DNA from: Cinnamomum chago
Taxonomy: Eukaryota > Streptophyta > Magnoliopsida > Laurales > Lauraceae
Assembly: GCA_038049695.1 (NCBI GenBank)
Contig: CP142451.1
Location: 127,538,501-127,602,500, forward strand
DNA: 64,000 bases
Direction of reading: 5' to 3'
Below are positions 3,490 to 32,413 of this stretch, piece after piece. A program made the translations under genes and the position numbers. Positions within the stretch are counted from its first letter, which is position 1, and every line of letters starts with the position of its first letter. The notes beneath the pieces were generated by a model that was not told the origin of the DNA, did not search any database, and saw only the letters and a program-made list of their open reading frames with translations.

Positions 3490-3626
3490 TCTTAGAAAGG
3501 AACAAGCTTTCTTCTTCTCTTCAACTTGTTTTTCATCATGTGGTGCGGTCAGCTAATGGCATAGCAGATGTGTTGGGTAAGCATGGGGTGGATAGAGAAA
3601 ATGCTTTGGTTGCTCCTATTTTGTAA
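3490..3626 (+). pseudogene. RNase H-like fragment of a LINE (copy A)
   Basis: The open frame ending at 3626 contains HHVVRSANGIADVLGKHGVD. This resembles the C-terminal end of plant RNase H-like domains of LINE origin (HVxRxANxxADxLAKxG). Nothing upstream in frame gives the rest of the fold, so it is a fragment. Confidence 0.5.
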
Positions 3627-3907
3627 TTTTATTTTTGTTCTGTAGCAAATTAGTATATCAGTCGTTTACCTTTGCTTGGTATCATATGCTTCTGGCATCC
3701 TTTATATTGTGATTGTACTCGCCCTTTAATTTTAATCTAATAAACATAGTATTAATAAGGGGGAAAAAATAAAGCTGTTGCTGAAGGAATGTGAACCATG
3801 AGTCATTTTTACTCTTCCTCGTGATAAATACTTCCATGTTTAAACCAAATTTAAAAAGGGAAAGTCTCAAATCATTGCAGCCTTTCTGAAGAAAGCAGTC
3901 CTGTAAG

Positions 3908-4333: not shown

Positions 4334-5021
4334 CTGCTCAGTTTTTAACCATCAAATTATGACACATTATCTTTTCATATGGGCAGAGAGATGCAGCGAG
4401 ATTTGGCAGACTTTTGCCAACTTTACTATATATAAATATTAAGTTAAAACTGTAATATTGTAACATTGCAAAACTTGTTAGACTAGAAGGTGAAGACCTT
4501 AAAATGTCCTTTTATCTTCCATTTGCTCCGCAATGCAGTAGATGATGATGGCATGTCTGCTACAAATATGGTTTCTGAGAGCTATATTACTTGTGTGTTC
4601 TATCAATGATCAATGGATTCCTCAAAATGGTTGTGATTGCTGGACCATGGACTCCAAATATGTGGAATTGCGCCTATTGATGATGTAGTCATGTGTATTT
4701 TGAGAAGTAAGTTTAATGTGTAAGAGTTTGTTTTATCATTATCCGGTTATCTGGAACTTGGCAACAGATACATGTAATGAGTTGCAGGTAACCAGTGCTG
4801 TTTTGATTCAAAACGAAGGCAAAAAAACAGTGGCCAATGCTTGGTCTTTCAACTTTCAGTCTATTTGGCTCGACCCAATTTGGGCGTGGCTTTGGATGGA
4901 TTATTAGGGCCATTAGGAAGGGGTCCAAAAATAAACATGTTTGGGCTTCGTGTTATGTCACATAATATGCCCATGCCCGCTAAGCTTTTTGATAGTGCAT
5001 GTTTTCATGTAAACCTTCTCT

Positions 5022-5325
5022 TAGGGGTGTTCATGGGCTAGGCTGAGGCATATATAAGCCCAGCCCGCCTTTACACATACGGGCCTATATCCGGTCCGAC
5101 CTGACATGGGCCTTTAAGTGTCTGGCCCGAACCTGCCCATTCAGTCAATTGGGACAAGGCTGGGCTTTCTATTACCTGTTTTTGTATATAGTCATTAAAT
5201 TACATGTGTTAAAATATTCGGTCTGGGCTAGGCTTTCTATTACTTAATCCAAGCCTGACCCGTATATTAAATGGGCCAAGCCCATACCAAAGTCGGGTGG
5301 GTCCGAACTCGTATTGTCAAATTTG
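5022..5325. mobile_element. Probable hAT-like MITE fragment (GGGC-rich type)
   Basis: Begins TAGGGGTGTTCATGGGC, a start typical of plant hAT MITEs, and continues with GGGC/GCCC-rich DNA unlike its AT-rich surroundings until about 5325. I could not find a matching right end or target duplication. The same segment is at about 33540-33835 in copy B, with a damaged left end, so the insertion predates the duplication. Confidence 0.4.
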
Positions 5326-5659
5326 TAAAGGTTTTGGCCATAAAACAAATAACAGTGAGGGTTTGATTTTTAATATTTTTTTTAAAAACTGCTTATTTTT
5401 ATTTTTAAAAAAAGGGCCCAAAAGAAATGAAGTATCAATTGCATGCTGAGATATCGGCCGATACATTAAGCTTGGTGGGTCGAGCTCATTGCAACCTTTA
5501 CAAAACTTTCCATTTCACTTGTGAATTGGGCCATCATTAATTAGAAATTTAGGGCACTTTAACTCAGCAGGAGTAACGTACATAAAAATGGTCCCTTCCA
5601 ACGTATGTGGGGTGAGACAATGGTTGTTTTAGTATTGCATCATTTTGCAGTAGAGTATT

Positions 5660-6300
5660 AGTATTTATTTATTGTTAGTTTTATCGATAATATGACTTAA
5701 ACCCACATCCTCAAAGTTGTGCCATGGCTCCCATAGTTGTATTAGTATTTATCTGGATGTGTGAAGCGAATGCAAGAATTGGGAAGGAGAAATGGTACAT
5801 ATAATGTTAAAAAAAGAGAGTTTTTTCCCCAAATATGACCCAAAGCATCAATCTCATTAAGCATGTTGGGCTTGATGACCGTTGTTGAATCCTTAGTCAA
5901 TATACGTATTTATTTAGTTTTATTAGAAATATGACTTGAATCCACAACTTCAAAATTATGTTACGGCTTCTATGGTTGTGTTAGCATTTATATGGATGCA
6001 TGAAGCAAGCGTGAGAATTAGGAAGGCAAAAGGAAAGTGATTTTCCAGAAAATGAGTTTTTCCGCAACCATGAGCAAAACACATCAATCTCATTCGACGT
6101 GTCGTGATCAATGACTACTGTTATTATCAAATGGTTGATTTTTATTTAATTTAGGTATTCATTTGTCTATTTAGTTTCATTACTTGAACCCATAATCTCA
6201 TGGTTTGGCTCTTGTAGTTTAATTAGTCTTTTTTGTAAGAAAAATGAATCTTTTCCGCTATTATGACCCAAGCACATCAATCACAGTCATTGTGTGGGCT
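5660..6300. repeat. Diverged tandem repeat, about 240-bp period, 2.7 units (copy A)
   Basis: A unit containing TAGTTTTAT, a TATGACTTGAACCCACA-like block, a GGCTCCCAT/GGCTTCTAT block and an ACATCAATCTCATT-like block recurs with starts near 5676, 5915 and 6172. Spacings are 239 and 257 bp. The copies are well diverged. The same array exists in copy B (about 34185 onward), where the solo LTR split its second unit and the hAT MITE inserted near its end. Confidence 0.75.
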
Positions 6301-6653
6301 GCATATGGCCGAACCCTTATTCCATCTAGGACTGGCTACACAGGTTTTTTTTACCCATCAAAGTTAGAACACCCAACTCTGCTCTTTTGTTTTGTTTTTT
6401 TTTTATTTTGGATTGTTAGATAGTAATTGCAGAGTTGTTTCACACTCCATCTTAACAATGATAAGTGCGTAACAAATAAGAAGTCACGGGCATAGATTAT
6501 AATACTCTCAAGAATCCTAGAGTCCTTTTCTTGTCTTTTAGATTAAGTTCCTCTTGTTCTTGTTAACCCACTCATGATTCAGTTGTAAGGTATCTTTTTT
6601 TTTTTTTGGCACTTTGCTTTATTGGTTTTGAATTTGTATAGTGCGTGTGAGAG

Positions 6654-7530
6654 CAGAGCCGGCCCAAGCCAATGTAAGGCTTCAGGCGAAAATTCTAAAT
6701 GAGGCTTTTTTTTCTATTATTATAAATATTTTAATTAAAATCTATATTTCGCTGATCTCCGTTTTACAATTTCATTATCTTCTTATTCATTTAAATCAAT
6801 TACTTGTTCATTTATTGCTATATTTTATTTATTGCTTGTAACAAATTTATCAAGAGCTCCTCTTTTAGATTGAATTAAATCATTCATTCTCCTCCTCCTC
6901 CTCCTCCTCTTCTTCTTCTTCTTTTTTAAGTTTCGAGTATCAGGATTCGTATTTTCTAGCTGACATATTTATTATTTATAAATTATAATTAATAATATTT
7001 TCAAATAAAAAAACACTAACTATAATAAACACACATACAATGTCAGCTTGGAATCTAAAAAATCATAAAAGTATAAAACAATAGAACCTGAGATCAGTGT
7101 TATTCTCAAAATAACCAAAAGAAAATGTTGGAATAAAAAGTTACAGAAACACAGTTGAGATGGCTTCTTGTCCGGAAGAGAGAAAGAGAGAAAACGAGCA
7201 ATGGCGAATTGAATGGGTATTGCCCATGTAGAGTAAAAATACTTAAAAACAAGATGTAAAGCCATCAAATCCCGTGCTCAATAAACTTAATCTCAGAACC
7301 AACGTTCAACAACTCTCTTACTTTTAATGATATATGAATAGGTGGCAACTTGGGATGGGTATGTTGTTTTTTTGGAAAGAATAAATATACTTTTGTTGAT
7401 ATTTTTATGGGAGTCGAGGCCTTGGAAATTAAGTTTTTAAGAGACTGATTTTGAGACTGAAATTTTTGGAGCCTGAGATTTCTGAGGCGTTAGGCAATTG
7501 TCCTATTGGTCTAAGGGTTGAACCGCCCCG
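6654..7530. mobile_element. Non-autonomous hAT element, CAGRGCCGG termini (copy A)
   Basis: The left end reads CAGAGCCGGCCCAA; in the better preserved copy B the right end reads TTGAACCGGCTCTG, its near reverse complement. In copy A the right end has decayed to CCGCCCCG. An 8-bp target duplication flanks it (TGTGAGAG on the left, CGTGAGAG on the right). The 877-bp interior is AT-rich and has no transposase reading frame. An 8-bp duplication with CAGGG-type ends is characteristic of the hAT superfamily. It was present before the segmental duplication. Confidence 0.8.
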
Positions 7531-7896
7531 CGTGAGAGTCCAAGGGGTTGCAACGTCTTAATCACCGTTGTCTCAGATTTGGCATAAAAGGACAGAACAA
7601 GGTATGTGTAATCTTTGTCATCCATGACACATAGATAATGATATGCACAAACCATCTCTCCTCATGAGAGCGATGAACACACATGTTGTTTACTATTTTT
7701 TAAGTAGATGTATATACATTACACACCCTATTAGCTTTATAATACATGGTAATTTCATGATTTCATTTAAAGGCATATTTGTTTTATGTAATTGAATTCC
7801 CATGAATTCTAAAATTTGTATTTCTAAATGCTTAAAAATAAAAAACCAAAGGTGAATCTCCAAACATCACCATCAAAAAGCCTCTTTTAAGATTAA

Positions 7897-7930: not shown

Positions 7931-9820
7931 CGAACACACAGTTTTACTAAGAAAATTTTAAAAAAATAAAGCTTTTAAAAAATTTAGTAGAAGCTGAAAT
8001 ACATTTAAAAATCAACTTTCAACAGAAAAATAAGTGATTGTAAATTGCAAGGTCCGTGCAATGTCCAAATACAACTGACAATACTTTCTTCCTATACATT
8101 TGAAAACAATAAAACGATGATACAGTGAGAAAAATGAGATCTCAAAAGACCATCGATATGGAATTTATATAACTTTTTGAGGATATAAATCACATATTTC
8201 TAGATATTTTATCATGAATGTGTACAAAGAAATTTAAATTTACTTTATTTAATCTATTAGGTCGACTTATCAGTTTTTTGGTGGACTTGACCTGCTAAAG
8301 TTGAAGTCCAGTCAAAAGCATAGTAAAATTGATAACTTGCAGTTTTTAAAAAAATAAAAATAAAAACTAAGAACCAGATGAGCTTACTGTTTTAATCAAT
8401 TACCATGAACATTATATGTTCACTACAAAATCAGATTTTATTAAGGGAAAAAAAATTATATCCTACCTAAGGACATCAGAATAAAAAAACTGAGATGGTG
8501 GTTTTAGTTTTAATTTACAATGAAGAATAACATCTCACACAGATCGTAAAAAATAATGAAGTACTCCGACTTGTCCCCAAGCGACGGGAATCAATAATGG
8601 TGGAACTATTATATGAACTCTGACGAGTAAAATTTGCATGGCACCTGTTGATAAATATTAGTATTTAACACGTGCATTGTTTTATTTTATAAGACGGACC
8701 ACTATCAGGTAAAAAGAGGCAATACCTCTCCAAAAGTCAGCATCTTCTTTTTACTTGATATAAAGTGTTATATTTTATACCCAGTAAGAAAAGAATAATG
8801 CATAGTAATCATAGAAGTTTAGTTAAATGGAAGCTCACAAATAGAGATATCCATAGGGAAAAAATACCAAAAAATAAAAAACTACAAATATAAGTCTAGC
8901 AAAAGAATTGGACATTCCTCTTAAGAAATGCATAAGAATGTAACCTAGGTATTCTAAATCAATTATTCTACTCTATACTGTATAGAGGATGGGAGTGCCG
9001 ATCAAAGTAAGAAAAACTTGAAATGAACAAAGACAAACTGAATTTGTTGCAGTTCAACATCAAATACTTATTTTAGTTGTTTACACTTAAAACAATCACT
9101 TCATTCATTGACTCTGAAGTTAGTAGTAAAACTAGCATAACAAGCAGTTTCTATGCGTTTCTCGTATTTCTTTAAGGAAATGCATGACGCTTCATTGAAA
9201 TATATGAAAAAAAGAAGAAGAACAACAAGAAGAAAAAGTTTGCAATGATGAAAGAAATACATGTGTTAGAAAATGATCAAAGTTTTTCAATTTAAATCTC
9301 ATGAGTAAGAGCAATAATAAATAAATATATTCATGCCCTTGAAATGCCCTTTTATAATAAAAAAATTCACAAAAGTTATATATTAAGAAACTAAAAAATT
9401 GTACAAAATAACAATAATTTTACGATAGCAATCTATAAGACTTACTACTAAATTGCATTTATGGAATTATCTTTAATAATCATTAATATTAGAAGAGAAC
9501 CAATATTTAGTAGTAGTTATTACAGTATCTAACTTGTGATTATTCTTCCAACAGGGGTATAAATCAAGATCATTACAACTATTATGTTAGATTGAAAACT
9601 CAATTATTCTAACTAAATAAAATACAAACACTTGAAGCAAAAGGAAAAAGAATCTTTAAATTTTTTTTTCATGGTAACTTTCATTAAAAGAGAGAAAAAA
9701 ACATGGCGGACATAAAATGAGTTTAAGTTTGTACATTTCACTTTCTTATTTTTGATATTTTGTTAGTTACTGCTTTTTTCTTAAAAAAGAAAAAGAAAAA
9801 ACTAAACACAAAGCAATAAT
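7931..9820. other. AT-rich non-coding DNA
   Basis: No gene-like frame, splice-linked exons or terminal repeats could be supported. It may be the body of the element ending at 7897. It ends at the truncated left border of the gypsy element. Confidence 0.5.
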
Positions 9821-10512
9821 GCCATAGGCCACGACAAGAAAGGCGACAATAAAGAGATGCGCATCTCGGCTACAGCCGAGATGACGAGCTTGCCCTGAGA
9901 CAGGCACAGGCGGCCACGCCTGACATTTGGACGCGTGACAGGGTTCGGGTACGCGTTGATGGGACGTATACATTATCCAAGCCGTCCACCCTCATCAAAT
10001 CTTTGACAGAGCCACATCCAATGGCTACAACCGTATCAGGGCAGGGCCTAAGAAAGAATCCGATGGGATCCCCAGCCGCTAACAAGTCAAGGCGAGATCA
10101 AGCCCAACGTGACTCTCATTTAATGCAGCATGGGTTGATCGAACCCTTATTTAATGCAATGTGGGCTATGTTGGACCCTCATTAATTGCTCTATGGGCTA
10201 ATGTATCCCTGGCACTCAAATCAGGAGGTCCACTGACGGGTATCCAGAGGCTTTCCTCATATAAGAGGATCCATCACCCAAGAAAAGGTATGCACAATTA
10301 CATGCATGCAACCATCCACAACTCTTTCTTCTCCGACCAGCTTCCTTGCACTATCTTAGACATCGGAGAGCCCTGTGCTGCTCACAGCCAAGGTCCTCTG
10401 ACCTCTTCTTCTTCCTTTTCAGGTACCCGAAGGGCTCAGCTCTCTCCGGTTACTTGGATAAGTCCTTTAAGGCTCCTCTAAATCTTGTGGGTCTGTGTTT
10501 TCAGCACCTACA
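9821..10512 (+). repeat. 5' LTR of the Tat-like element, 5'-truncated
   Basis: It aligns with 20046-20737 of the 3' LTR but lacks the first 130 or so bases that the 3' LTR has (19912-20045). It keeps the TATA-like TATAAGAGG at 10260-10268 and ends CCTACA at 10512, directly before the primer binding site. The truncation removes the TG start and any left target duplication. Confidence 0.85.
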
Positions 10513-10513
10513 A

Positions 10514-10935
10514 TTGGCGCCGTCTGTGGGAATTTAGATTTGCAGACTCGTCCCTAACACCATGACTAGGAGAGCTGCGAAAGGCGGAGAAATATCTAAG
10601 ACACAACATGTAGGACCGTCCTCCGACCTCCTTCCTGCTAAAAAGAGGTCTGGGAAGAAAGCTGTTACAGAAAACTATGATAAGCGTGATTTCGTCCAAA
10701 TCGACGTTCAAGACCATAACCTTGGCGCCGTCTGTGGGAATTTAGATTTGCATAGTCGTCCCTAACACCATGACTAGGAGAGCTGCGAAAGGCGGAGAAA
10801 CATCTAAGACACAACATGTAGGACCGTCCTCCGACCTCCTTCCTGCTAAGAAGAGGTATGGGAAGAAAGCTGTTGCAGAAGACTATGATAAGCGTGATTT
10901 CATCCAAATCGACGTTCAAGACCATAACCTTTGCT
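10514..10935 (+). repeat. 208-bp tandem duplication spanning primer site and gag start
   Basis: The segment from TTGGCGCC at 10514 to about 10721 is repeated from 10722, so the primer binding site occurs again at 10723-10740 and the gag start codon at both 10562 and 10770. The two units differ at a modest number of positions, so the duplication is not recent. The first gag start runs into the second primer site and stops at 10765. Confidence 0.9.
10515..10532 (+). promoter_or_regulatory. Primer binding site, first copy
   Basis: TGGCGCCGTCTGTGGGAA lies two bases after the LTR end, the expected place for the tRNA primer binding site. It begins with TGG, complementary to a tRNA CCA end. I do not assign the tRNA. 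Confidence 0.8.
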
Positions 10936-12580
10936 CGGAGTCGCTTTCGGGGGGAGTAACGGCGTCTCTCCGGCGAGGAGACACTCGACAGCAGTTTATA
11001 GAAGGTCCCCCGCTGGCCCGAGTTTAACGAAGCAAGTCTCCAATGGTGGACGGACCAGTTTTGTCTGAGCGTCCGGAGGACGATGGCGATGATTATTACA
11101 ATCCCGATGAGGACTTTGACTCCACCCTTGAGGAGATTAGAAAGCAAAATGCCACCATTAAAGAAAAAGATGCTCTGATCCGCCAGCTCCAACAGCAGCT
11201 GGAGAGAGCGACAGGCTCGACCAGGCAGCAACAGTCGCAGCGACAAGACGAGGGGAGGGTGTCTCGCAGCAGACGCATTGCTCCGCCGGAGAAAGATTTG
11301 AGGCTTCACTTCAACGAGAAGAGGCGTGACCGAGCTTGCGATGAAGGCTCGAGCACCAGCTGTAACCATTCGAGGAGAGTGTTAGAAACCATTCTTGAGG
11401 ACATGTACGACAATCAGGAGTGGCTCGACGAGTGCATTAGGCAGACAGACCAGCGCGACCTGGAGATGGCTGGTCTCACCCGAAATCGAGGGAATGCCTG
11501 TGAGTTTATCCATCTCGGCACGTCCCCCTTCTCTCCCGACATCAAGAGCCATCCCCTCCCGAGGAAGTTCACTGTCCTGAAGTTTGTCACTTACGACGGG
11601 ACTTCAGATCCGACTGCTCACCTGCGACACTTCTCCCAGAATATGTTTGTTTGGGGGGACGAAAGCCACCTGAACTGTCGGGTCTTCTCCTCCAGTTTGG
11701 GTGACCTTAAGTGGTTCTGTGCGCTTCCAGAGGGGTCTATTTTGAGTTGGCAGCAACTTCAGCAGTCCTCTATGAAGAAATTGTCTATTTTGAGTTTGCA
11801 GCAACTTCAGCAGTCCTCTATGAGGAAATTCCAGGCCTACAGAATCATGCCGAAGACGGATGTAAATATTATGGCCCTGAAAATGAAGCGAGAGGAGAAC
11901 ATCACCCGCTTCACCAAGCGATTTTGGACGGTCTACAGCCAGATCGAGAACTCAAAGGACGAGGTTGCGATCTTCGCATTTCAGAATGCCCTGCTGCCGG
12001 ACAATGATCTTCGTAAGGATCTGGTCAGGAACCCTGTGTCCTCCATAGCAGCGCTGATATCCATAGTCAACCGCTACATTGCCCAAGAGGACGACCAGAT
12101 CCGAGCTCGGGAAAGCTTCAGGATCGTGCAGAAGGACCGAGATAGCAGGCCTTCGAAGAAGGATAAGGGGTCATCCCGAAGAGAGGAAGCGGATAGGCGC
12201 TGGACCCTAGCCGGTTCGGCGAAGGCTCCGACATTCAGTAGAGCGAGCATAAGACCGAGGAGTGCAGGATACTTAGGTCACACTTGGAGAAGCTTGCTCA
12301 AGACGAACACCTGCGAGAATACGTCAAGACGGGCGCTGGTGATGACGACTGGGCCCCGCACCAAGATGAGAAAAGCCAGGACAATGATGGGTCTGAGAAG
12401 CTCATAAACGTCATCCATCTAGCTCCCCCGCCCAAGGGGAGCAACCGAGCTAGTGCCGAGTCTAGGGGAGCCTCCCACAGTGAGCAGGTGATGGCGGTTG
12501 AGCTCGACTCAACCCCCAAGAGGGCTAGGAGAGAGCGGCCCAAGATCTGGTTCTCGGACGCAGACCTGGAGGGGGTCTAG
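10770..12580 (+). pseudogene. gag of the Tat-like element, broken
   Basis: Gag forms the virus-like particle. The frame starting MTRRAAKGG at 10770 is stopped at 11025, resumes in the same frame and is open to 12407. A Glu/Lys-rich coiled-coil stretch (about 11160-11220) precedes the Retrotrans_gag region, where DGTSDPTAHLRHF (about 11596) is a typical motif and NITRFTKRF (about 11900) another. A frameshift near 12270 moves reading to the next frame (TEECRILRSHLEKLA), where the usual zinc knuckle region is degenerate. A 48-bp in-frame duplication lies at 11736-11831. Confidence 0.85.
11736..11831 (+). repeat. 48-bp in-frame tandem duplication inside gag
   Basis: Two consecutive 16-residue units read SILSWQQLQQSSMKKL and SILSLQQLQQSSMRKF. 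The period is exactly 48 bp, so the frame is kept. Confidence 0.85.
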
Positions 12581-15500
12581 TTCCCCCATAATGACACGCT
12601 CATTGTCACCCTGAAACTAAGAGATTACACTGTTCAGAGGATCTTTGTCGACCCCGGCAGTTCATCCGAGGTCCTTTACTTCGATTCCTTCAGGAGGATG
12701 GGCTTAACGGAGAAAGATTTGCAGGATGCTCGGACTCCCCTCATAGGCTTCAGTGCCAAGCTAGTGTACCCCAAATGAAAAGTGACCCTCTAAGTCAAGG
12801 TTGGCGGCGCATCCGTCGTGGCAGACTTCCTGGTGGTCGACGCACCTTCATCTTACAAAGCCATAATGGGGAGGACCTGGCTCCATAACATGGAGGCGGT
12901 CCCCTCCACTCGCCACCAGAAGCTAAAGTTTCCATTGAAAGATAAGAATGGCAAAGTGGAGATAATTACAGTCCGAGGAGACCAGCAGACGGCTAGGCAA
13001 TGCTTGATGGCCGTGGTGTCTGGGGAACAGGAGCCTAAGCAGGTCAACATGGCCAAGATGGAGAAGAAGCTGGACAAGGTTGGTCAGGACCCGGAGAAGA
13101 AAAGTGTGGAGGACCTAACCGAAATCAGGATCGACTCAAACGATCCGAAGCGGTTCTTCTTACTCGAGAGCCAGCTTGCAGAGCCAGAGAAGTCAAAATT
13201 GGTCCAGTTCCTGAAGCGGAACAAAGAAGTCTTCGCCTAGACACCCCAAGAGATGCCTGGCATTGACCCCTAGGTCGTGTGCCACAAGTTGAGGGTGGAC
13301 CCGAACCACAAGCCAGTGATGCAGAAGGCTCGCCAGACTGGGGTGCCATAGACAGAAGCCGTGATCGAGGAGGTAGACAGGCTGCTAGAAGCCAGGGTGA
13401 TCAAAGAAGTCCATTACCCGTCCTGGTTAGCTAACACGGTGGTGGTCAAGAAGAAAACTGATAAGTGGATAGTGTGTGTCAAGTGTCGACTTTACCGACC
13501 TCAACAAAACCTGCCCAAAGGACAGCTTTTATATCCCAATGATCGATCAGATGATCGATACCACTGCTGGACATGACAGAATGAGCTTTCTTGACGCGTA
13601 CCACGGTTATCATCAAATACCGAAGTACGGGTCGAACGAAGAGAAGGCAACCTTCATAACACTTAGAGGCACTTACTGTTACAGGATGATGCCATTCGGG
13701 TTGAAGAATGCGAAAGCCACCTAATAGCGTCTCGTCACCAGAATGTTTCAGGCTCAGCTCGACAAGACCATTGAAGTTTACATTGATGACATGGTCATTA
13801 AGTCCAAGCAGGCGCATAACCATTTGCAAGACCTAGCTCAAGTCTTTGTTATTTTGAAGAGGTTCCAGTTCAAGCTTAATACTTCCAAGTGCGCCTTCGG
13901 TGTCGGTTCCGGCAAGTTCCTTGGAAGCTTGGTCACGCGCAGAGGGATCGAGGTTAATCCAGACCAGATCTTGGCTATCCTCAGAGTACAGAGTCCCACT
14001 TTTGCGAAGGAGGTCCAGAAGCTCACTGGCATGGCAGCCGCACTGAATCGCTTCATCAACAAATCCCCTGATAAGTGTCGGCCTTTCTTTCAGCTTCTTA
14101 GGAAGAATTTAAAATTTCAATGGACTCCGGAATGTGACCAGGCCTTGCAAGAACTCAAGGCCTATCTCTCTTCACCCCCTCTGCTCTCAACCCCGATACA
14201 CGGAGAGGTTTTGTACTTATATTTAGCGGTCTCGGATTACGCGGTGAGCTCGATCCTCCTCAGAGAAGAGGACAAGCTTCAAAAGCCAGTCTACTATACG
14301 AGCAAAACCCTCATCGATGTCGAGACCAAATACCTACCCTTAGAGAAGCTCTCTCATTACTTCCAAACTCACACGATAATGGTTGTTACGGAACATCCAC
14401 TTAGATCTGTTTTTAAAAAGGCTGACTTTTCAGGAAGAATCTCCAAATGAGCTGTCGAACTGGGACAGTACGACATCCAGTATCAACCCAGAATGGCGAT
14501 CAAGGCCCAAGTGCTGGTATACTTTCTCGTGGAATTTTCTCCGAGTTCGGCACCAACCCAGCTCGGCACCGAACTGGGGGGCACGGGGCAGGAGACGCCC
14601 ACGGGCTCTGATGAACAACCACAAGGCCAAGCCCTCACCCCAGTTTGGAGAGTGTTCGTCAACGGATCCTCCACTTCAAGAAGAGCTGGTGCGGGAGTTG
14701 TCCTCTAGTCTCCAGAAGGGTTGATCATCAAGCAAGTTTTGACCTTGGACTTTAAGGCATCAAACAATGAAGCTGAGTACGAAGCTCTGATAGCGGAACT
14801 AAACAGCGCCAAAATCTTTGGAGTTCAATAGCTAGTGGTCTTCAGCGATTCACAGCTGGTGGCGAACCAGCTAACTGGGGACTACCAAGCTCGCAATGAC
14901 AGGATGGCCGTTTATCTAGCCTTTGCGAAGAAGATGCTCTTCCAGTTCCAGATGGCCGAAATCAGACAGATAGGCAGATAGTCAAATTCCCACGCCGACG
15001 CCCTTACTAATTTGGCCTCTGCTGTCGAAGCAGGAAAGAAAAGAAATATTGAAGTAGGATCGTTGGCCGCACCCAGCATAGAGCTCCATCTACCTCGGGA
15101 AGTATTGTGTCTTGACCTCGGCCCGAGCTGGATGGACCTCAAAATAGCTTACCTCAATGACGACAAGCTTCCCGAAGACAGGGGCGAAGCTCACCGGATC
15201 AGACTTAAAGCAGCCCGGTTCTGGCTGTCTCCGAAAGGTAAGCTCTACAAGAAGTCGTTCACAGGCCCGTACCTTCAGTGTGTTCACTCGAGCAGAGTCG
15301 AAGATTTTCTCTTTGAAATACATGAAGGGATCTGTGGGAGCCACATTGGATGGAGGTCCCTAGCATACCGAGCCATCAGCCAAGGCTATTGGTGGCCATA
15401 TATGTAGAAGGACGCGCAGGTATACGTCAGAAAGTGTGAAAAATGTTAGAAATTCTCACACTCTCTCCATCACCCAGCGCAGGATCTCAGTCCACTCTCC

Positions 15501-16370
15501 AGCCCGTGGTCGTTCGCCTAATGGGGGCTCGACATCGTGGGACCACTTCACCAAACTCCAGGGAACATGAGGTGGCGAATTGTGGCCACCGACTACTTCA
15601 CCAAATGGATCGAGGCGGAGCCGCTGTCTTCCATCACAGAGCAGGATTCCAAGAACTTTGTGTGAAAAAACATTATCACGAGGTTCGACATCCCTAGAGC
15701 TTTGATCTCGGACAACGGGACCCAGTTCGACTCCAATCTCTTCAGGAGTTTCTATTAAAAGCTCGGCATCCGCAACCATTACTCCACCCCGGCTACCCAC
15801 AGAGCAGTGGGCAAGCAAAAATTTCTAACAAGGTGGTACTCGACGAACTGAAGAAACGGCTCAACAGAGCTAAGGGATGATGGGTAGAAGAACTTCCGAG
15901 CGTCCTGTGGGCTTATAGAACAACCCCAAGGCGCTCCACTTCGGCGACACCTTTCTCCCTAGCCTACGGAATGGAGGCTATCATTCCCTTCGAAATTGGC
16001 CTCCCTACTCTAAAGTCTGAACTCTTCGACTAGGGCCGAAATGAGTCACACTTAGCATTGGAGCTGGACTTGACCGATGAGCGAAGGGAAGCAGCAGCAA
16101 TCCAGTTGGCTGCCTATCAGCAGCAGCTGGCCAGAGGCTATAATCAGAAGCTTAGAGAAAGGAAATTCTCAATAGGCGAGTTGGTTCTGAAGAAGACACT
16201 CCCAAGCGACCAAAAGCCCAACCAGGGCAAGCTGGCGCCGAATTGGCACAGACCCTTCAAGGTGATCTCTACTGCCGGACAATCGGCCTATAGACTCGAA
16301 GACATGGAGGACCAGCAGTTGCCTTGGCCGTGAAATGCGTTGCATCTCAAGAAGTTCTATTTCTGAAATA
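12581..16370 (+). pseudogene. pol of the Tat-like element (PR-RT-RH-aRH-IN), broken
   Basis: Protease: DPGSS at 12650, an altered form of the usual active-site motif. Reverse transcriptase: about 13360-13960, with a frameshift near 13480, FTDLNKTCPKDSFYIP, YRMMPFGLKNA and the catalytic YIDD at 13779-13790. RNase H: about 14130-14450. A second, archaeal-like RNase H: about 14640-15050, with VFVNGSS, NNEAEYEALIAEL and FSDSQLVANQL. Integrase: about 15290-16050, with TDYFTKWIEAEPL (15588) and SDNGTQF (15708). The C-terminal domain (GYNQKLRERKF, about 16140) runs on to about 16370. Many in-frame stops (for example 13238, 13723, 14706, 15406) show it is non-functional. Confidence 0.9.
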
Positions 16371-16450
16371 TGTACTTTGTACTTAGAAGATCTCAATAAG
16401 AGAGAATTTCTTATTCAAAGAACGAGGCGTCCTTTATCAGCAGTTCGTCT

Positions 16451-16866
16451 ACGGCGATTGATGAGATCACCTCGGGTCGGCTTATGCGCCACCCGGGCGT
16501 GAAGCCATTATGGCCATTGATGAGATCGCCTCGGGTCGGCCTATGCGCCACCCAGGCGTGAAGCTATTACGGCCATTGATGAGAGTGCCTCGGGTCGGCC
16601 TATGCACCACCCGGGCGTGAAGCCATTACGGCCATTGATGAGACTGCATCGGGTCGGCCTATCCGCCACCCGCGCGTGAAGCCATTACTGCCATTGATGA
16701 GATCGCATCGGGTCGGCCGATGCGCCACTCGGGCGTGAAGCTATTACGGCTATTAATGAGATTGCCTCGGGGTCTGCATATGCGCCTCATTGGCGCGAAG
16801 CCGTTACGGCCTTCGACAGAATTGGCCTTCGGGGCGAATCGAGTTCCACCCCAGCGTTAAGCCGTT
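16451..16866. repeat. 59-bp tandem array, about 7 units
   Basis: Units begin at about 16451, 16510, 16569, 16628, 16687, 16746 and 16806, each with GATGAGATCGCCTCGGGTCGG-like and CACCCGGGCGTGAAGCC-like blocks; the last units are more diverged. It lies just after the integrase stop. Tandem arrays in this 3' untranslated position are common in Tat/Ogre elements. Confidence 0.9.
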
Positions 16867-16869
16867 TCG

Positions 16870-17370
16870 GCCTTCTAGGCTCTCCCAAGGTCGCTGATCC
16901 TGCTGACACGAGTCCGTTTCCACTGGCAGGAGGGTTGATGCATAGCCTCCTGCTCGGGGCGGTATCGAAAGGCCAAGGCATCCCAGAGTTAACCCTAAGT
17001 ACGAAGCAAATCTATTATTAGACTTACTACGCCTTCGCTGCACCGTGGAGAGGTAAAGACATATTGTGGGCCGAGTCAACCACGAAAAGACACTGTCTAT
17101 TTTGCATGACTTTCTAGTTCAGCCGTACCTCCAACTTGGAACGCACAGTGCCGAACCCTAACACTTGTACAAAAAACACAAGAAAGATACAAGAGTACCA
17201 TAGAGTTCAGTTCAAGACAAGATTCAATTGCGTTATAGCCACTCCACTGTACAAAAAAAAGAGATGAAAAATCACAGTTTGAAGATAAAGGCTCAATTTT
17301 ATTGATTCATTGATGATGCGATTTATACAATCAAGTCTTTACAAAAGAAAAAAGAGGAAAAAGATACATT
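16870..17370. other. Untranslated spacer of the Tat-like element
   Basis: No frame of interest. It separates the tandem array from the 3' end of the antisense gene. Confidence 0.5.
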
Positions 17371-17376
17371 GAAAAT

Positions 17377-19363
17377 TTAGGTGCCAGCATCAGCGTTGGC
17401 TTCATCAGCGGGAGGATGTTCAGCAGGAGCTTGGGCTAGAGTGGGGGCAGGCTCTGGCCCCGGATCCGAGCTCGGGAACTTGGCCGGATTTGTGTAGGCT
17501 GGGTCATCCTCGGGGATGCCCACCTTGTCCAGTGCGGCAAACCAGCCAAGCTCCCATGCCTTGTTCCGGATGGCTACGACCTACTCTTCGTATTGAGTCG
17601 TTGCCTCTGCCACCTTTTCGTCGAAAGCCTTCTGGGCGTCGGTCTCCAGCCTGGCTTTGATTTCATCTTCTTGTTCGGCCATCTTCTTTTTGTATGCCTC
17701 GACCTCGACCATGGCGGCTTCCGTCTCGGCGATAAGACTTTGATTCGTCTGCTCCTGCTCGGCCGCCTTCTTCCTGCACTCCTCCAACGCGGCTTCCAGG
17801 GCCCGTTTCTACGCCTTAGCCTCCACCACCCACGCGCCATGCTGCCGGGCTCTCTCCAGCTGCACGTGGGAACGCTGCACCATCTGTGAAAGGACAAAAA
17901 TAAGATAGTGAGAAAACTGTAACTGAAATCTGAAAACCTAAAGGATTTAGGTCTCCGACGCTTACCAGGAGCCCTGTCTGCATCTGTGCCATCGCCAGCC
18001 CTACGTCGTCGATGCCCCTATGCCTCGCCATGTCTTTTGGCACCCTGGCATTGGCAAGCGTCGCTATGACGAGGGGGCTTCCAGAGACTTAGTCCTCCAC
18101 TGTGATTGGCTTCCCAGGACCAAGCTGGAAGGACGGGCACCATGGGGCGGGGCGGGGCGCTGCGCTTCGGGGGATTCTGGGACTTCATCGGCTGGAGCCT
18201 CGGTCCTGGGCCTCTCCTCGACTCTGCTGCCTTCCTCCTCCACGATTGCCCTGGTTTGTTGTTCACTCTCCAATGCTGGGGGTGGGGAAGGGGCCCTGTC
18301 GGCAGCAGAAGCCTGAGCCTAAGGAGCTCAGCCAGGCCCACCGAACGAAAGTGCGCTAAGGTCTTTCATGGCGAGACGACGGCGAGGCAGCATCTCCTCC
18401 GCTTCCTGGATCGTAGCTGGACGGCGAGGTCGCTTGATGAGCAAGCTCGACTCGGCCTCGGATGTAAAGGCCTCGGCGCCCGATGCGTGCCTGATCGCCT
18501 CGGGGGTTGCTTGGGGTTGGGCCGCCTCGGTTTCGGGCTCAACTTCCCTCCTCTCCAGGCTACCTCGTTGCGGCTCCGGCGCGACCTCGGCCCTCTCCTG
18601 ACCGGCTTCAAACCTCTTCTCATAGCCCCTGTATCTGGGCTGGTAGCCAAGCAGCGCCCAAGCGGCCCTATTGGAGAATTCTATGCACTTGGCGACTCGC
18701 TGGTGCCAAGAGTCGTTCCTCCTCCAACCTACCAGTCTAGCCTTTCTTTGATGAGCAGCTGCAAGATCAGAGAAGCGTCAGTTCGGGAATGTGAAAAAGA
18801 ACGGAGAAATCAAATCAAGACTGGGAAATTTCATACTTAGGACGACCCCGGGGCGGCGGGGGACGTTGTATGCTCCGATCTCATTGGGATCGAACTCCCA
18901 ATTGCCCGAGACGGACATGAGGTCGTCCCCCGCATACTTGTTGGAATCCTCTAGTGCCGTGACGAAAGCTTTTCATTTCGGCTTGACACGGAGGTAGTAG
19001 GCACCCTCCTTCGTTTTACATATGTCATAAACGTCCTCTATGTCATGGACGCCTAAGTCTATACGGAGGTGCCTATTCAGCGCCACTGTACCCATGATAA
19101 TTTTTTAGGCGTTGGGCATCAGTTGGCAGGGTATGAGGTTCCAGGAGCTGAGGCAGGCCCTAAGTAATGGATGAAGGGGGAACTTGACCCCCCCCCTCTA
19201 TCACTGCGATGAGAGGGAAGGGCATCCAGCTGTCAGCGTAAGATCGGCGGACATAGTCTACGGGATCGGCCTGCCGGACAAAGACATCGTCCAGTATCCC
19301 AAAAGCATACTTAAGGCCTTCTAAGGACTGGGGGGAGTCAATTCAGTGACTGTAGATACCCAT
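17377..19363 (-). pseudogene. Antisense accessory gene of the Tat-like element (Transposase_28-like), three exons, decayed
   Basis: Read on the minus strand from ATG at 19363. Exon 1 (19363-18837) contains KFPLHPLLRACLSSWNLIP, PCQLMPNA and YYLRVKP, resembling the plant 'putative gypsy-type transposon' domain (Pfam Transposase_28). Exon 2 (18758-17966) is Glu/Pro-rich. Exon 3 (17883-17377) encodes a coiled coil (AEQEDEIKARLETDAQKAF) and ends NADAGT-stop. Introns 18759-18836 (78 bp, GTATGA...TTGCAG) and 17884-17965 (82 bp, GTAAGC...TTCACAG) have plant-like borders, and the frame joins across the first. About three stops in exon 1, further stops in exons 2 and 3 and a frameshift near 18045 show decay. 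A TATA box lies upstream at 19583-19590. Function is unknown; plus-strand frames over this region (for example 18106-18840) are shadows. Confidence 0.7.
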
Positions 19364-19582
19364 GATTGATATAAAAAAAAGGTGGAGAAAGGAGGGGACT
19401 AGACGAAAGCAGAAAGAGGTGAAAGACTCGAAGAACTTACTAAGGAAACCTAGAATAGAAAATGGACGCAGGAGTGCTGTGTGCAGACGAAGACTTCACT
19501 CTGGGTTTTAGCTATGGTTCTTTCTTAGAGGTGCTCGTTCGAAAGTAGAAAGTAAGAAAAAGGAAGAAGATGAGGGTGCATC

Positions 19583-19590
19583 TATTTATA
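19583..19590 (-). promoter_or_regulatory. TATA box of the antisense gene
   Basis: TATAAATA on the minus strand, in CCTTATAAATAGATG, 220 bp upstream of the ATG at 19363. This would give a leader of roughly 190 bases. The position inside the element, facing away from the 3' LTR, fits an independent promoter. Confidence 0.55.
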
Positions 19591-19911
19591 AGGTAGGAGC
19601 ACCCCCTTTATGGCGCCATCTCCGAAATTCAAAAAACGTCCCTTCAGAGACTGCACGCGTGCCCTGTGCGAAAACGTGGACAACTAGGTGGCGACGCGTG
19701 TCATCGGCGGTTCGTCTCCCGCAATGATTTAAGCATGGCATTTATTGCAATTAAGCTGCCCCTGGCACGCGAGGGGAAGTTGAATGAGCGCCACGCGTCA
19801 ACCGCTGACGTCAGAACGAAAACCTCTGGCGGTCTTTCGTAATTATAGCTCCCGACCCTAAGGGATTCGAGATCCCTCAAGATCCCAAGGAGTCAGAAGC
19901 TAGGGGCCAAT

Positions 19912-20737
19912 TGTGTGGGCAGCCCTTAACGCGCAAGTTAAGTAAAGACTGGTGATAATCCCTGCTGGAATTCCATATCAACTGCATGCGCCTTGGCACG
20001 GGAACTGGAGCGCTTACCGAGATTAGCACTGATGACCACCGTCTCGGCCATATGCCACGACAAGAAAGGCGACAATAAAGAGATGCGCATCTCGGCTACA
20101 GCCGAGATGACGAGCTTGCCCCGAGACGGGCATAGGCGGCCACGCCTGACATTTGGACGTGTGACAGGATTCGGGCACGCGCTGATGGGACGTATACAGC
20201 ATCCAAGCCATCCACCCTCACCAAATCTCTGACAGAATCACATCCAATGGCTACAGCCATATCAAGGCAGGGCCGAAGAAAGGATCCAATGGGATCCCCA
20301 GCCGCCAACAAGTCAAGGCGAGATCAGGCCCAAGTGACTGGCATTTAATGTAACATGGGCTGATCGGGCCCTCAGTTAATGCAATGTGGGCTATGTTGGA
20401 CCCTCATCAATTGCTCTATGGGCTAATGTATCCCTAATAGTCAAATCAGGAGGCCCACTAACGGGTATCTAGAGGCTTTCCTCATATAAGAGGATCCATC
20501 ACCCAGGAAAAGGTACGCACAATTACATGCATGCAACCATCCACAACTCTTTCTTCTCCGACCAGCTTCCCTGCACTAACTTAGGCATCAGAGAGCTCTG
20601 TGCTGCCCACAGCGAGGGTCCTCTGACCTCTTCTTCTCCCCTTTCAGGTACCCGAAGGGCTCACCTCTCTCCGATTACTTGGATAAGTCCTCTAAGGCTC
20701 CTCCAAATCTTGTGGGTCAGTGTTTTCAGGACCTACA
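19912..20737 (+). repeat. 3' LTR of the Tat-like element
   Basis: It starts TGTGTGGGC (or TGTGGGC two bases later) just after the purine tract and ends CCTACA, like the 5' LTR. A TATA-like TATAAGAGG is at 20485-20493. By eye it differs from the 5' LTR at many positions, mostly transitions, indicating an old insertion. Confidence 0.85.
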
Positions 20738-22815
20738 ATAACCATTACATTTCGGGGCATCTACATATATGGTTATGATCATTAGAGCATATACTAATGT
20801 TTGGCCTGGCTTTAGATTAAATCATTCTCCTAATCCTATGATTTTCTTTTTGGTAAAAATTAGGAAATATCATAAAAAAAGAAAAAATTATACAACCAAA
20901 AAGAAACCAATAAAAAGACTAAAAAACAAAAATTACAACTTCTCACCTAGCGAACATGACACTAGAAGCATTGAAGTACTTATGTTTCTTCTATCCTATG
21001 ATTGACATGCATTGAAGTGGATATAAAGAAAGTTGAAGGATTAGCAACATCTAGTACCACTGATTTTTTAGTTAAATAACCCACATAGAAACCCCAAATT
21101 TGATAGTAAAAACGTCAACTGTCACACCATGATTAAGAAAAATTATCATGATAGAAAATGTTCCAAGCCAGTCAATCATGGATAATTAGCGTAACGAGTT
21201 TTTTTTTTTTTTTGTCATCTGTACCTAGCCCTCTCAACTAAATAGTCAAAAAATAAAAAAAAAAATTAATAGGCTCATCGATCAGATGGCTGGGATGATT
21301 GAATCTGTACAATTTTTGGGCTAATGCCCATTCAAGAGATGGTTTTGGCACTGAGTTTCAGTGGATGAGGCCAGAACCATTGCCTGTCGATATATTGAAA
21401 CACTTAGTTGAAGATTTGAAAGAGACTTAAAAAAAAAAATGAAAAGTTGTAGACTTGAAGTTATCCTAATCCATACAACCTGTCTCCAGGGATTAAGAAT
21501 TCTACACAGTAGAATATTGATAAACTCTATCCTTTTACATCAACATCTTCCATTAATCCTATCTCTATCATCCTAGTGAGTCACTCCTGTGGTGTCCAAA
21601 CATACATCTTATAATAAATAACAGTAATAAATAGTAATACATGTACCAAGGAAGTTCTGCCCATTCCCTTGGCCCACGTTGGCGTGTCTCATGCCCTTGG
21701 ACCCTCATACACATGAGTATATTTATCACTCTCCTATTCAAAGTTTCAAAGCCCACATTGGCGTGTCTCATGTCCTTGGACCCTCATAGACATGAGTATA
21801 TTAATCACTCTCCTATTCAAAGTTTCAAAAGCTCTCTCTCTCTCTCTCTCTCATGTATATATATAAAAGAGACATGCACATAGAGGAGACATGCCCTTGT
21901 GACCCTTGGAAGAATAAAAGACCAGAAGCTTGTCTTCAACCACCAGACGATACCAGATGATAGTATGTGTTGCACCATTTGTTGTCTTGGATCCTATCGG
22001 GACATGTCTGATTACATTCCAGTATTTTCATGTGCAAGTCACATGCTCCCAAATGCCAAGACATGGCTTGCCATTAAGGCTGTCAATTGGCCGGACTTGG
22101 ACTGGACTCAACTTTGTCTAAGCCCAAGTCCCTTTACAATTGAAGAGCCTAACTCTGGGGCCTGAGTCCAGTTGTAGACCCCAGAGCTCGGTTCTGAGTT
22201 TGCCCATTTTGGGAATTAGCAGGTCAGATTTCTCCCTTTTCAAGTCCATTAGTACATTCAGCTGGCCGAATAAGATCCAGTGAGTTGTAATCTTAAGCCC
22301 ATATCTGGCCGTTGAGGGGATCAGACCCTAAAAAATCCGGTCCGGAAATGTTAAATGATAAGAATGGCTAATTTATTGGACAATCCAGTATAAGCCAACT
22401 AATTAACAGGCTACCTCATGGATGTCCCAATGGTAAAAAGTGCATTGCTAGCCATTTAAACATGGCTTGGGTCAGACCCGAGACCAAAATGGGCCTGAAC
22501 TGAAAACTACTGGGCCAGATTGTGTCAAGATCCTCGATGGGTCTGAATGTGATGATGATAGGCACAATCTTATAATAGTAAATTTCTACTTTCAGTTTGG
22601 TAAACCATAAACAGTAATCAACCGAAATGGCCATTTGTAACCTTAATGCTTCTTTTTGTATAACCTCAGTTATTTTGCGGTAACCAATTACAGACCCCAA
22701 ATAAACAGAATAGAGAGCAACTGAGGCCCCAAAGGTTCTAGAATTGAAACCTGTACCCAAACTGATTTAATATTATTGAGCGTTGTCTGGATCAATGTGG
22801 ACCAAGACAGTTTAA
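20738..22815. other. Intergenic DNA with no supported gene
   Basis: AT-rich. It holds a 79-bp tandem duplication (21672-21829, two units with GCCCACRTTGGCGTGTCTCA), a CT microsatellite (about 21834-21852) and GGCC/GGTC-rich DNA at about 22075-22340 that resembles a decayed hAT MITE without clear ends. Confidence 0.6.
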
Positions 22816-28404: not shown

Positions 28405-28735
28405 CCATGTTAGAATCAGAAATGAGTACTTTCAAGCTAGGGTTAGCATCAATGGGTGATAAATTAAGAGAGACTCGTTTGAGATGGTTTGAACATTTCC
28501 AACTCATGCCAACAATTATGTCTTTGATGAAAAGTTTTTCTATGCAGGTTGATGGCCCACTAAGGAAAAGAGGAAGGCCGAAAAGGATATGGATAGAAGT
28601 AGTAAGGATAAAACTGAAGAAGTGCAACCTATCATAGGATTTGGCTTAGAATAGATTGGAATGGAGGAAAATAATTCATGTAGCTGACTCCAGTGTAGTT
28701 GTAGCAAGGCTTTGATGATGATGATATTACTTTTT
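28405..28735 (+). pseudogene. LINE-type reverse transcriptase tail, relic (copy B)
   Basis: An open frame of 76 codons (28407-28637) reads GDKLRETRLRWFEHF, then KRGRPKRIW, which is the well-known plant LINE pattern of a DKxRExRLRWFGH block followed by a GRPKxxW block. After the stop the frame continues in degenerate form to an IHVAD-like end and a GATGATGATGAT tail near 28720. No catalytic YADD-type core is present nearby, so only the C-terminal end survives. It duplicates 1-235. Confidence 0.65.
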
Positions 28736-31700
28736 GCTAGAATTTGTTAACCTAACATACACTAACTAGTCTTATTTCATTTAATACTTCCAAAAGTTTA
28801 TTCTGGAATTTTATCAAAATGGTGAGATGAGGGCCCTTAGAGGTTACTGAGATGGATTGAAGGGAGCAAACACATGATCTTAAGAGGTTTTTGGCTCTAC
28901 CATTATGTGAAAAATCTCCACACAACTTGGACTCAGAACAAACTGGTAACTGGAGACTCTGAACGATGGAGATCAAATAAATTAAACAGGATTCGAGAAG
29001 CCTTGTTTGGAAGAACGAAATCTAGCTTCAGAGACCTACATTGTTTGTGAAAATTTGCCTCTCACTAGAGGTCACCAGACCAATGGCATCAACCCTCCTC
29101 TAACTAGGGATTTACCTACACTGTCATCCTGCAGCATGCTGCAGTGTCCCCAGAAGCCACCTCTGTACCTAGGGAGGGGTCATTTGGACAAGATTTACTG
29201 GTTGGGAATTGTTCCCCTTGATTTATTCTTTTAGCACTTTATTTAAATCTTTCCTTTATTGAAAGAAAATGGTAACTAGATTTCAAGTATCATTTTCTTG
29301 TGGGATGAAATCGGTATGCATGGTTTGTGATGTGTGATCCTGTTATAGTACAGCTGCTGCGGAAGTCATAGGTAGATGATTGGAGAAACGGTTGCTGTGT
29401 TACAAGCAACAATTTGGGTGACAAGTATAGATAGGTCTACATAATAGCTTAGCTTAGGTAGATACCGAAACATGCCCTAAGTTTTCTCTTTTGATGAAAC
29501 CAATATATGCTTATATTATCTGTATGTCTTTTGAATAATTTGGAGATCATTTACTTGTAGGCGCAGTATGGTAAGACGCTGCCAAAATCACTAATAATGT
29601 TTTTCAACAATCATTATGATCTAGATATTTTTTGTTGTTCGAAGTAGCCAATATCATGTCTCTGCGACTCATTTCGACTGAAATCTGAAATGAGGGGCGG
29701 GTCCGTAGCTACTTTGTGATCAGGTTTTTTTTTTTTATGTAATAAAAGTTATGGAGGGTTTAACTATGATTCAACTTTGACTGAAACCTGCTTCAATTGC
29801 TTACATGAAGCTTTACAACTCATGGATTTTTACTATCTACCATGAATCATGTCTGGTTGAAGAAGCCTTGGAAATGCCATAATATTTTCATTTGATCTCC
29901 TCATTTTCAGCATCATGGCATCTCTAGTATTATGTTTGGCAATTTAAACAATCATCCGAGGGATTTACATATGACATTGGACCATCAGGTCAAACCTCCC
30001 CATTTCATCTTGACCTCTAAGGTGTACTGGTATTTTTTAATTCAAAATATGCAGAAGATGCTAAAAAGTTCAACTTTATACTTGAAATTTGTGAGAAATA
30101 TGTAATCATTATATTGATACTGTTATACTGCAATAAGAAATGATGTTTTGTCTTTTTCTTCAGTTGTGTCAAAATATTTATATGCATATGGAAAATAACA
30201 CTTTTCAGAAGGTAAAGTTTCTTGTTACATGCAAGTATATGAAGCATGGCGAGCATTAGTACTGCACAATGGGAATTGAGTCAATTCTCATAATCCTGTC
30301 AAAGATTCAAAATTGAAGCTTTCGGATTTATGTTGTTTGCACACGATGCTATGCTAATTTAGCAAGACAATAAATGAACTAAATAATGTGTTAAAACTTT
30401 GAAGAAAATGATTTGAAAATCAATAAAATGAAAGCATCATATAAGAAGTGCAAGCTAGTGGATTTGAGAGTAGGGAAGATGACTTGGTCAAAATTGAATA
30501 TAACCTAGAGCCATTGAGTGATATTTAAGAGCAGTTATAGAACAAAATGGAGGGTTTGAGTTGGATGTCGCAAGTATAATCGGTAATAATGGACTAATTG
30601 GAGTCACGTGAGTGTTGTGCCCGCTTGTGTGTGGAGAATTGTGGAGGTTTGCAAACTTTTAAAGAAAGTAGGGTTTGGGGTAGACAATTAAAAACTTTGA
30701 ATGAAGTAGTGATTCAGTGGGAGATTTTCCCAATTCAAGGACCATGTATTTGGGGCGATTAGAGTGCATATATGGAATGCCACTTATATTTAGGAGATAC
30801 TTGCAATTATGGTTAGAACAAGATGTTGTAATAAGTTTGTATTTAAATTTAATTAGGAATCTTTATTTGGATTTATTAGTTGTTATTAGACTCCCATGGG
30901 TTAAGTTTTCTATTTTCATCAAAAAGAATTTATCCTGTTTAATGTGCGAAGGGTTGAATGCTTACATTTGGGGCGTGTTTATGCAATGGGAGAATTGCGC
31001 TCTCCGTGGATTTCCATTTCCATGGGAGAGAGGAATCCTTCATTCCTACCCCTCCCATAGGAAATTGAAATCCTCTCTATTGATGGAAATCAGTTCATTT
31101 TTCCCTTTCCTTAAGGAAAAAGTTTCTCATAAACTATAGAAGAGTGTTGGATGGAAAATCAAAACAATTTTACACTCTTATCTCCGAATCCTTGTTGCAC
31201 AAACATACCCTCACTTTTGGGGTCAAGCTTCTATCGAAAACTAGGAACCATGAAGGTCCTGTGATGTGCCTTCAGCATGTAAGCATGAAGTCTAGGAGTG
31301 GCCTTTGTGGATGTATCTTTTAATGATGTAGTTTTGATCCTCAGATTAGGGGCGATTTGAACCTTAATACTTATATTTAAATGCTTTTTTTTGGATTGGT
31401 AACATGACACAAAGTTGCAAAAGTGAGCACCTTCACTATTCTGCAGGCTCTTGTCAAAACCTTTGATCATCTCTATTAGAGAAATAAAGAACTATTGGAT
31501 GTGTAGAGTAGTGGCTCAGTATTAGTCCTCTTTTGAATAAGACTGGGTTTATCATATTGTTTTGATACTGTTAGAAGGGTTGAATCCGCTGCATTGTTGT
31601 ATCATTTCTTGGATGGAGTATGCCATGGTAATGACCCATATAGGAAGGTACTAGCCTGGTCATTGGCCTTTCTTCATTGAATCATGACCGTTGCTATATT

Positions 31701-31996
31701 CCGTATTAACATTATATTTTGAAAGGGTTAGAATTGGCCCACCATGGAGATCTTCATGGACACTGAACCACGGTCCTCACTTCCTGTTTGATTACATTCA
31801 TTCAAAGAAAGCATGTTGGGAGAATTCTGAAATGTCCTAACAGCTGTCGGCAAATTCTTTAGCTCAGCCCCGTGAGCATTCTGAAGCTGGAACTCAGAGA
31901 ATTTCAAATGTCAGATATGTCATTCTACTGTGATGAATTCCATTTGCCTTCTGGAATTTCAAATATTTATAGGTCATCAGCCAACAATCTTCTATT

Positions 31997-32133
31997 TCTT
32001 AGAAAGGAACAAGCTTTCTTCTTCTCTTCAACTTGTTTTTCATCATGTGGTGCGGTCAGCTAATGGCATAGCAGATGTGTTGGGTAAGCATGGGGTGGAT
32101 AGAGAAAATGCTTTGGTTGTTCCTATTTTGTAA
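31997..32133 (+). pseudogene. RNase H-like fragment of a LINE (copy B)
   Basis: Duplicate of 3490-3626 with the same RSANGIADVLGKHG block and one visible amino acid change near the end (VAPIL in copy A, VVPIL here). Judged a fragment for the same reason. Confidence 0.5.
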
Positions 32134-32413
32134 TTTTATTTTTGTTCTGTAGCAAATTAGTGTATCAGTCGTTTACCTTTGCTTGGTATTATATGCTTCT
32201 GGCATCCTTTATATTGTGATTGTACTCGCCCTTTAATTTTAATCTAATAAACATAGTATTAATACGGGGGAAAAATAAAGCTGTTGCTGAAGGAATGTGA
32301 ACCATGACTCATTTTTACTCTCCCTCGTGATAAATACTTCCATGTTTAAACCAGATTTAAAAAACGAAAGTCTCAAATCATTGCAGCCTTTCTGAAGAAA
32401 GCAGTCCTGTAAG

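Follow-up and report, generated by a model that had tools for sequence, protein, structure and literature searches.

A conserved and apparently spliced antisense gene in Retand-type LTR retrotransposons of Cinnamomum chago

LTR retrotransposons of plants generally lack introns, and a 2025 review names Ogre and EVADE as the exceptions (PMC12786077; see also PMC6317226). Antisense ORFs, which the first-pass annotation of the present locus had described as known in Tat elements, are indeed well documented. It is already in print that nearly all Retand clusters carry an antisense Transposase_28 (TRP28; PF04195) ORF, the figure being 97% of clusters in a 2025 survey that predicted its ORFs with ORF Finder (PMC11963269), and that gene23 of the maize element Grande, which lies antisense between pol and the 3′ LTR, has its own promoter and encodes a nuclear protein (PMC7264820). 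Another counterpart is HBZ/APH of HTLV, which lies antisense close to the 3′ end of its retroelement, has a spliced transcript and encodes a nuclear regulatory protein (PMC10186651). Neither PMC7264820 nor PMC11963269 uses the word intron in its main text, and among the literature matches listed no title or opening of an abstract concerns introns in an antisense gene of this kind, though an earlier mention may exist.

The locus considered here lies within a window of 64 kb (the whole stretch analysed, C1:127538501-127602500) in a genome of 1.06 Gb in 14 contigs. The gene resembles the Retand TRP28 ORFs in place (pol to 3′ LTR), strand and domain type, and differs from those of the survey in having several exons with conserved splice sites. 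The comparison with gene23 covers position and orientation, together with an upstream promoter of its own and a nuclear protein, both of which are predicted for the window gene; the latter has two introns, and a TATA box kept as TATAA in 25 of 27 relatives. The likeness to HBZ is one of working principle, with no homology claimed, and whereas the HBZ promoter is in the 3′ LTR that of the window gene appears to be internal. The introns of Ogre and EVADE serve sense RNAs, whereas those of the window gene are antisense and thus safe from loss in the retrotransposition cycle. Taken as a whole, the locus is very probably a decayed Retand-type element from a family that bears, in antisense orientation, an accessory gene that is spliced and codes for a protein.

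The host element occupies 9820-20739 of the plus strand and was recognised from LTR homology (9821-10514 aligned with 20047-20739) and from its reverse transcriptase (RT), RNase H and integrase domains. The two LTRs differ at 58 of 693 compared sites, 46 of these being transitions, and a K2P distance of 0.090 marks the element as an old insertion. AATAA, read by eye, flanks it at either end and is a possible target-site duplication. Pfam matches on the plus strand run in the order RVT_1, RT_RNaseH_2, Integrase_H2C2 and SH3_Tf2-1, the RT - RNase H - integrase order of Ty3/gypsy elements, with Integrase_H2C2, SH3_Tf2-1 and the first RVT_1 piece scoring under the Pfam cut-off. The lineage is defined by an additional RNase H domain (aRH) that follows the first one and precedes integrase (PMC6317226), and the segment at 14451-14708, in just this place, is aRH-like by eye and has no Pfam match. 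The LTRs of some 0.69 kb, the roughly 9.5 kb that they enclose and the region from pol to the 3′ LTR that contains the antisense gene (16333-20046, about 3.7 kb; survey span 2,933-6,566 bp) are all within the ranges of the 2025 survey (PMC11963269), so that the layout of the element agrees with Retand, a lineage within the Tat clade. Between integrase and antisense gene there is a tandem array of a 59-bp unit (16450-16811, 6.1 copies), and the survey reports tandem repeats for about half of its Retand elements (PMC11963269). The PBS/leader region behind the 5′ LTR is itself tandemly duplicated (10514-10931, 2 x 208 bp, 96% alike), so that two PBS-like sites, identified by eye, are present in this copy. 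The 64-kb window yielded neither a tRNA nor any Rfam match that reaches the gathering score.

On the minus strand, between integrase and 3′ LTR, the first-pass annotation had proposed an ATG, three exons and two GT-AG introns, and every one of these was recovered where it had been placed. Exon 1 (18837-19363, ATG at 19363) is Transposase_28-like from about 19215; exon 2 (17966-18758) is charged and proline-rich with one KRPR basic motif; and exon 3 (17378-17883), which is rich in Ala, Glu and Lys and coiled-coil-like by eye, runs to a TAA stop (17378). The putative introns between them are of 78 bp (18759-18836, GTATGA...TTGCAG, phase 1) and 82 bp (17884-17965, GTAAGC...CACAG, phase 0), giving exon junctions at 18837/18758 and 17966/17883. 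Both have 41% T and 37-41% GC, against 14-23% T and 53-62% GC in the exons. When compositional outliers were sought with the borders left free and no splice rule applied, 17949-17889 and 18828-18763 came out as the top two in the 1,986-nt gene, each within a proposed intron, and none of 1,589 exon-only windows of 80 nt matched the T content of the introns; the proposed layout thus goes beyond what chance would give. A TATA box, TATAAATA, is present at 19590-19583, 220 bp above the ATG as had been noted, and a candidate poly(A) signal, AATAAA (minus strand, 17298-17303), which the first-pass annotation did not mention, follows 75 nt past the stop. Taken alone these are weak signals, because TATAAATA occurs within 300 nt upstream of 4.2% of minus-strand positions, and AATAAA within 150 nt downstream of 15%. 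A further addition is that the window copy is a pseudogene, with at least two frameshifts (exon 1 has one close to a run of G around 19190, and exon 2 has one or more) and about seven in-frame stops (3 + 2 + 2 in exons 1-3, frames read by eye). Judged by these lesions it is unable to make the protein, though the introns look real and old.

The case for the gene consequently rests on its relatives in the same genome. At least 43 other matches were found among the best candidates (40 of 1,707 scored), and the aligned set comprises 27 loci that cover 28 of the 43 non-self matches, the other 15, which are partial, being left out; over single exons these loci are 65-89% identical to the window copy. 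The donor GT is kept in 27/27 relatives at intron 1 and 27/27 at intron 2, and the acceptor AG in 25/27 at each, a conservation that the first-pass annotation had put forward as a check on its model. By comparison other GT and AG dinucleotides in the exons are kept at means of 57% and 56%, and those inside the introns at 57% and 29% (6 and 7 sites). Single exon sites often reach 92% or more (20/74 for GT, 43/167 for AG), and it is because of this that the argument is carried by the four splice sites jointly. Intron length ranges over 75-94 bp (intron 1) and 74-99 bp (intron 2), and in every copy the T content of the introns is at least 0.36 while that of the exons is at most 0.25. The ATG is kept in 24/27 relatives, and AATAAA in 15/21 relatives with sequence at that site. 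As for the TATA box, the core stood up, with TATAA in 25/27 and TATAAA in 22/27, and the full TATAAATA did not, being kept in just 10/27.

The 480 bp above the gene (19560-20040, minus strand), taken as its upstream or promoter region, recur 78-89% alike at 39 other places. A location of the TATA region within the 3′ LTR was entertained when no polypurine tract was found at 20046, and was rejected: among the 40 matches to 19560-20040 (self included) there is, by eye, no same-orientation pair one element length apart. The distribution of matches thus places the promoter region internal to the element and outside the LTR. No polypurine tract adjoins 20046, where the 3′ LTR homology starts; the purine runs of at least 9 within 17300-20060 that lie nearest to it are at 19771-19779 and 19554-19570.

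Variability by codon position is informative about which strand has been translated. In the tested parts of the three exons, read in the antisense frame, variability at the first, second and third positions is.102/.074/.300 (exon 1),.152/.155/.320 (exon 2) and.202/.172/.335 (exon 3), whereas it is flat in the introns (.224/.224/.216 and.287/.310/.334) and in the 5′ UTR. Indels per pair per 100 bp number 0.30-0.62 in exons versus 1.7-2.0 in introns, and those in multiples of three make up 32%, 53% and 79% in exons 1, 2 and 3 and 13-20% in introns. It could be argued that the antisense frames are a shadow, arising by chance in GC-rich DNA or cast by a sense-strand protein, since no open frame of the region is longer than that found on the plus strand, where ORFs are open at 18106-18840 (244 aa) and 17440-17889 (149 aa), and an equally long run arises in 11 of 500 resampled sequences. 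In the plus-strand ORFs, however, it is codon position 1 that peaks (.320/.155/.152 in 18400-18756;.330/.151/.181 in 17440-17883), so the third-position excess belongs to the antisense frame; on this evidence the plus-strand ORFs were rejected as coding, and the shadow explanation is very improbable. A second alternative is that the antisense transcript matters as RNA, pairing with genomic RNA and leading to small-RNA silencing or damped retrotransposition, with the protein secondary. Convergent transcription would yield double-stranded RNA, as a 2020 review proposes (PMC7264820), but constraint at the amino-acid level extends over the three exons of this family and exons 1-3 of a second family described below. 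It follows that the protein has been selected, and while an RNA role may coexist with it, the reading in which RNA is primary is improbable.

The same set of copies bears on whether the introns could be coding. Intron 1 contains an in-frame stop or has a length not divisible by 3 in 28/28 copies, the window copy included, and breaks the frame in 14/14 of those with the expected phase at the end of exon 1. For intron 2 the first-pass interpretation fared less uniformly, as retention breaks the frame in 22/28 copies and leaves it open and readable in frame in six (L006-L011); a coding reading of intron 2 is nevertheless opposed by its T content, by its rate of indels and by variability that is flat across codon positions. 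Exon 1 is open in 4, exon 2 in 2 and exon 3 in 8 of the 28 copies, and none is open through all three, so that the signal is one of past selection plus decay. The comparison among copies shows an antisense reading frame under purifying selection, together with conserved splice sites and promoter region; as far as aligned sequences can tell, the coding signal reflects selection in ancestral active copies, from which current function of any one copy does not follow.

The family is recognised as Transposase_28 because of its homology to clear members and not by the Pfam cut-off. The first-pass annotation had spoken of a Transposase_28-like/coiled-coil arrangement, and here the relationship was upheld while the HMM search fell short: against a cut-off of 26.2 bits the window copy scores 12.5 bits with the downstream frame alone and 12.8 bits as a 60-residue read-through, a longer read-through of 168 residues in which X marks the joint has no Pfam match, and the four copies with open exon 1 score 12.3-18.5 bits (best E 0.0024). 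Of the conserved Transposase_28 positions G21, P25, L34, P46, N47 and F55 listed in PMC11963269, five are present at exact spacing and F55 is T (by eye), a five-residue pattern with three matches in 127,996 six-frame residues, the window gene among them. The exon-1 proteins of the four copies match 30/30 loci that are above the Pfam cut-off with E 1e-3 or better, the 20 matches listed having a best E of 6e-11 and identities of 24-28%.

Those clear members belong to a second family. PF04195 has at least 150 matches in the genome, all over the cut-off (2,100 candidates, 150 of them scored), whereas 14 control genomes gave no match. The best 30 loci (L031-L060) were examined, of which L052-L056 are near-identical and not independent, and L047 is without the anchor motif. 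In 6/7 loci checked the gene is antisense to adjoining pol/integrase, L066 being without a match and L067 having an extra, distant same-strand RT match that is taken for another element; judged from these neighbours the second-family loci are other Retand-type elements. Directly after the Transposase_28 exon they have an intron with GT in 28/30 and AG in 30/30. Its donor could be mapped in 20/30 loci, and in 17 of the 20 it is in phase 1 after query residue 174 or 177, the other three (L032, L033, L040) giving phase 2; intron 1 of the window family falls after residue 175, also in phase 1. On position and phase, intron 1 is thereby shown to be homologous across two distant families. The last intron, before the coiled-coil exon, keeps both sites in 28/30 and is in phase 0 like window intron 2. 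Compared with the window family there is an extra intron, within the region of window exon 2, and this middle intron has GT in 29/30 and the least conserved acceptor (AG in 20/30). The third codon position is the most variable in exons 1-3. In exon 4 the values from the first base are.218/.281/.234; the reference locus seems to have a frameshift in this exon, and the peak falls on position three of the frame that it keeps open for most of the exon's length.

Many published Retand antisense ORFs are given as ORFs of more than 600 bp (PMC11963269), as might be expected if the T-rich blocks were recent non-coding insertions in an intronless gene. This explanation is more improbable still than a shadow origin of the frames: the blocks are in 28/28 aligned copies of the window family, the distant family has intron 1 at the homologous position in the same phase, and the intronless intron-1 junction has no matches. 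Likewise, intron loss in other families, suggested by long open frames, was rejected for the loci read, in which, unlike the ORFs as surveyed, the second-family open frames continue into intron sequence. The spliced intron-1 junction of the second family gave 0 genome matches with a degenerate pattern (up to 3 mismatches), where the unspliced exon-intron boundary gave 221 (103 + 118) at the same tolerance; this boundary is the positive control, and it covers the exon-1 half of the spliced patterns. The spliced junction of the window family also gave 0 matches, the positive control being that of the second family. Such an absence is expected if the sense RNA alone is reverse transcribed, and it agrees with the suggestion of the first-pass annotation that antisense introns outlast retrotransposition. 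Outside this genome, no relatives were found in viral and genome contig collections with exon-1, exon-2 and RT proteins or a degenerate pattern, two bacterial matches to the pattern being taken for chance.

In the proposed mechanism, RNA polymerase II would start at the internal TATA promoter between gene and 3′ LTR and head towards pol, and two short U-rich spliceosomal introns would be taken out of the antisense transcript. Translation would yield a protein of about 600 residues in which a charged linker, containing a basic motif, joins a Transposase_28-type domain at the N terminus to a coiled coil at the C terminus. Transcription from the upstream region, splicing and translation are all inferred from the gene model. 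The introns would persist because reverse transcription starts from RNA of the opposite strand, where these segments are not introns. Exon 3 has a weak Mis12 match (E 0.023, under the cut-off). The protein might accordingly work in the retrotransposition complex, in nuclear entry, integration targeting or coiled-coil chromosome tethering, rather than in transcription control, but coiled coils are prone to spurious Smc and Mis12 matches. Smc- and Mis12-like matches are also reported for other Retand antisense ORFs (PMC11963269). We tentatively favour, at clearly less than even confidence, a DNA-binding protein of the nucleus that regulates how the element itself is transcribed or integrated, comparable in its working with HBZ, because the Grande protein is nuclear and self-promoted, Transposase_28 is predicted to bind DNA (PMC11963269) and exon 2 has the KRPR motif; nuclear location and DNA binding are here taken from published related proteins. 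The integration-complex role is doubtful, if nearly as likely as that of a nuclear regulator.

If transcripts confirm the model, a widespread lineage of plant retrotransposons would have a conserved spliced antisense gene, and ORF-based annotation would truncate that gene at its first intron and misread the protein. The gene models supplied here would allow what Transposase_28 proteins do to be tested, and the elements would be a natural case of introns surviving retrotransposition by sitting on the opposite strand. A broader reading, which falls just short of an even chance, is that Retand elements of flowering plants carry an ancient multi-exon antisense gene that predates the split of the families, the published separate ORFs (Transposase_28, Smc-like, Mis12-like) being exons of one spliced gene. 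Since the antisense position permits introns through unlimited reverse transcription, its origin may lie in a gene of the host or of a virus, captured as DNA with its introns, and splicing would restrict the protein to the antisense messenger and never the genomic RNA.

Some loci have histories of their own. At G000:C2:97275268-97278048 two truncated promoter-gene pieces of the window family lie tail to tail as a rearranged pair. The copies L014-L030, except L019, form a second group, in which identity to the window copy is as low as 66-70% for exon 2 but 79-83% for exon 1; some may be mosaics of the two groups, hinting at recombination between subfamilies. The window also contains a large direct duplication, 1-5885 being 97% identical to 28506-34406, and this continues piecewise from 5899-7893 at 36640-39182, where the second copy has extra DNA.
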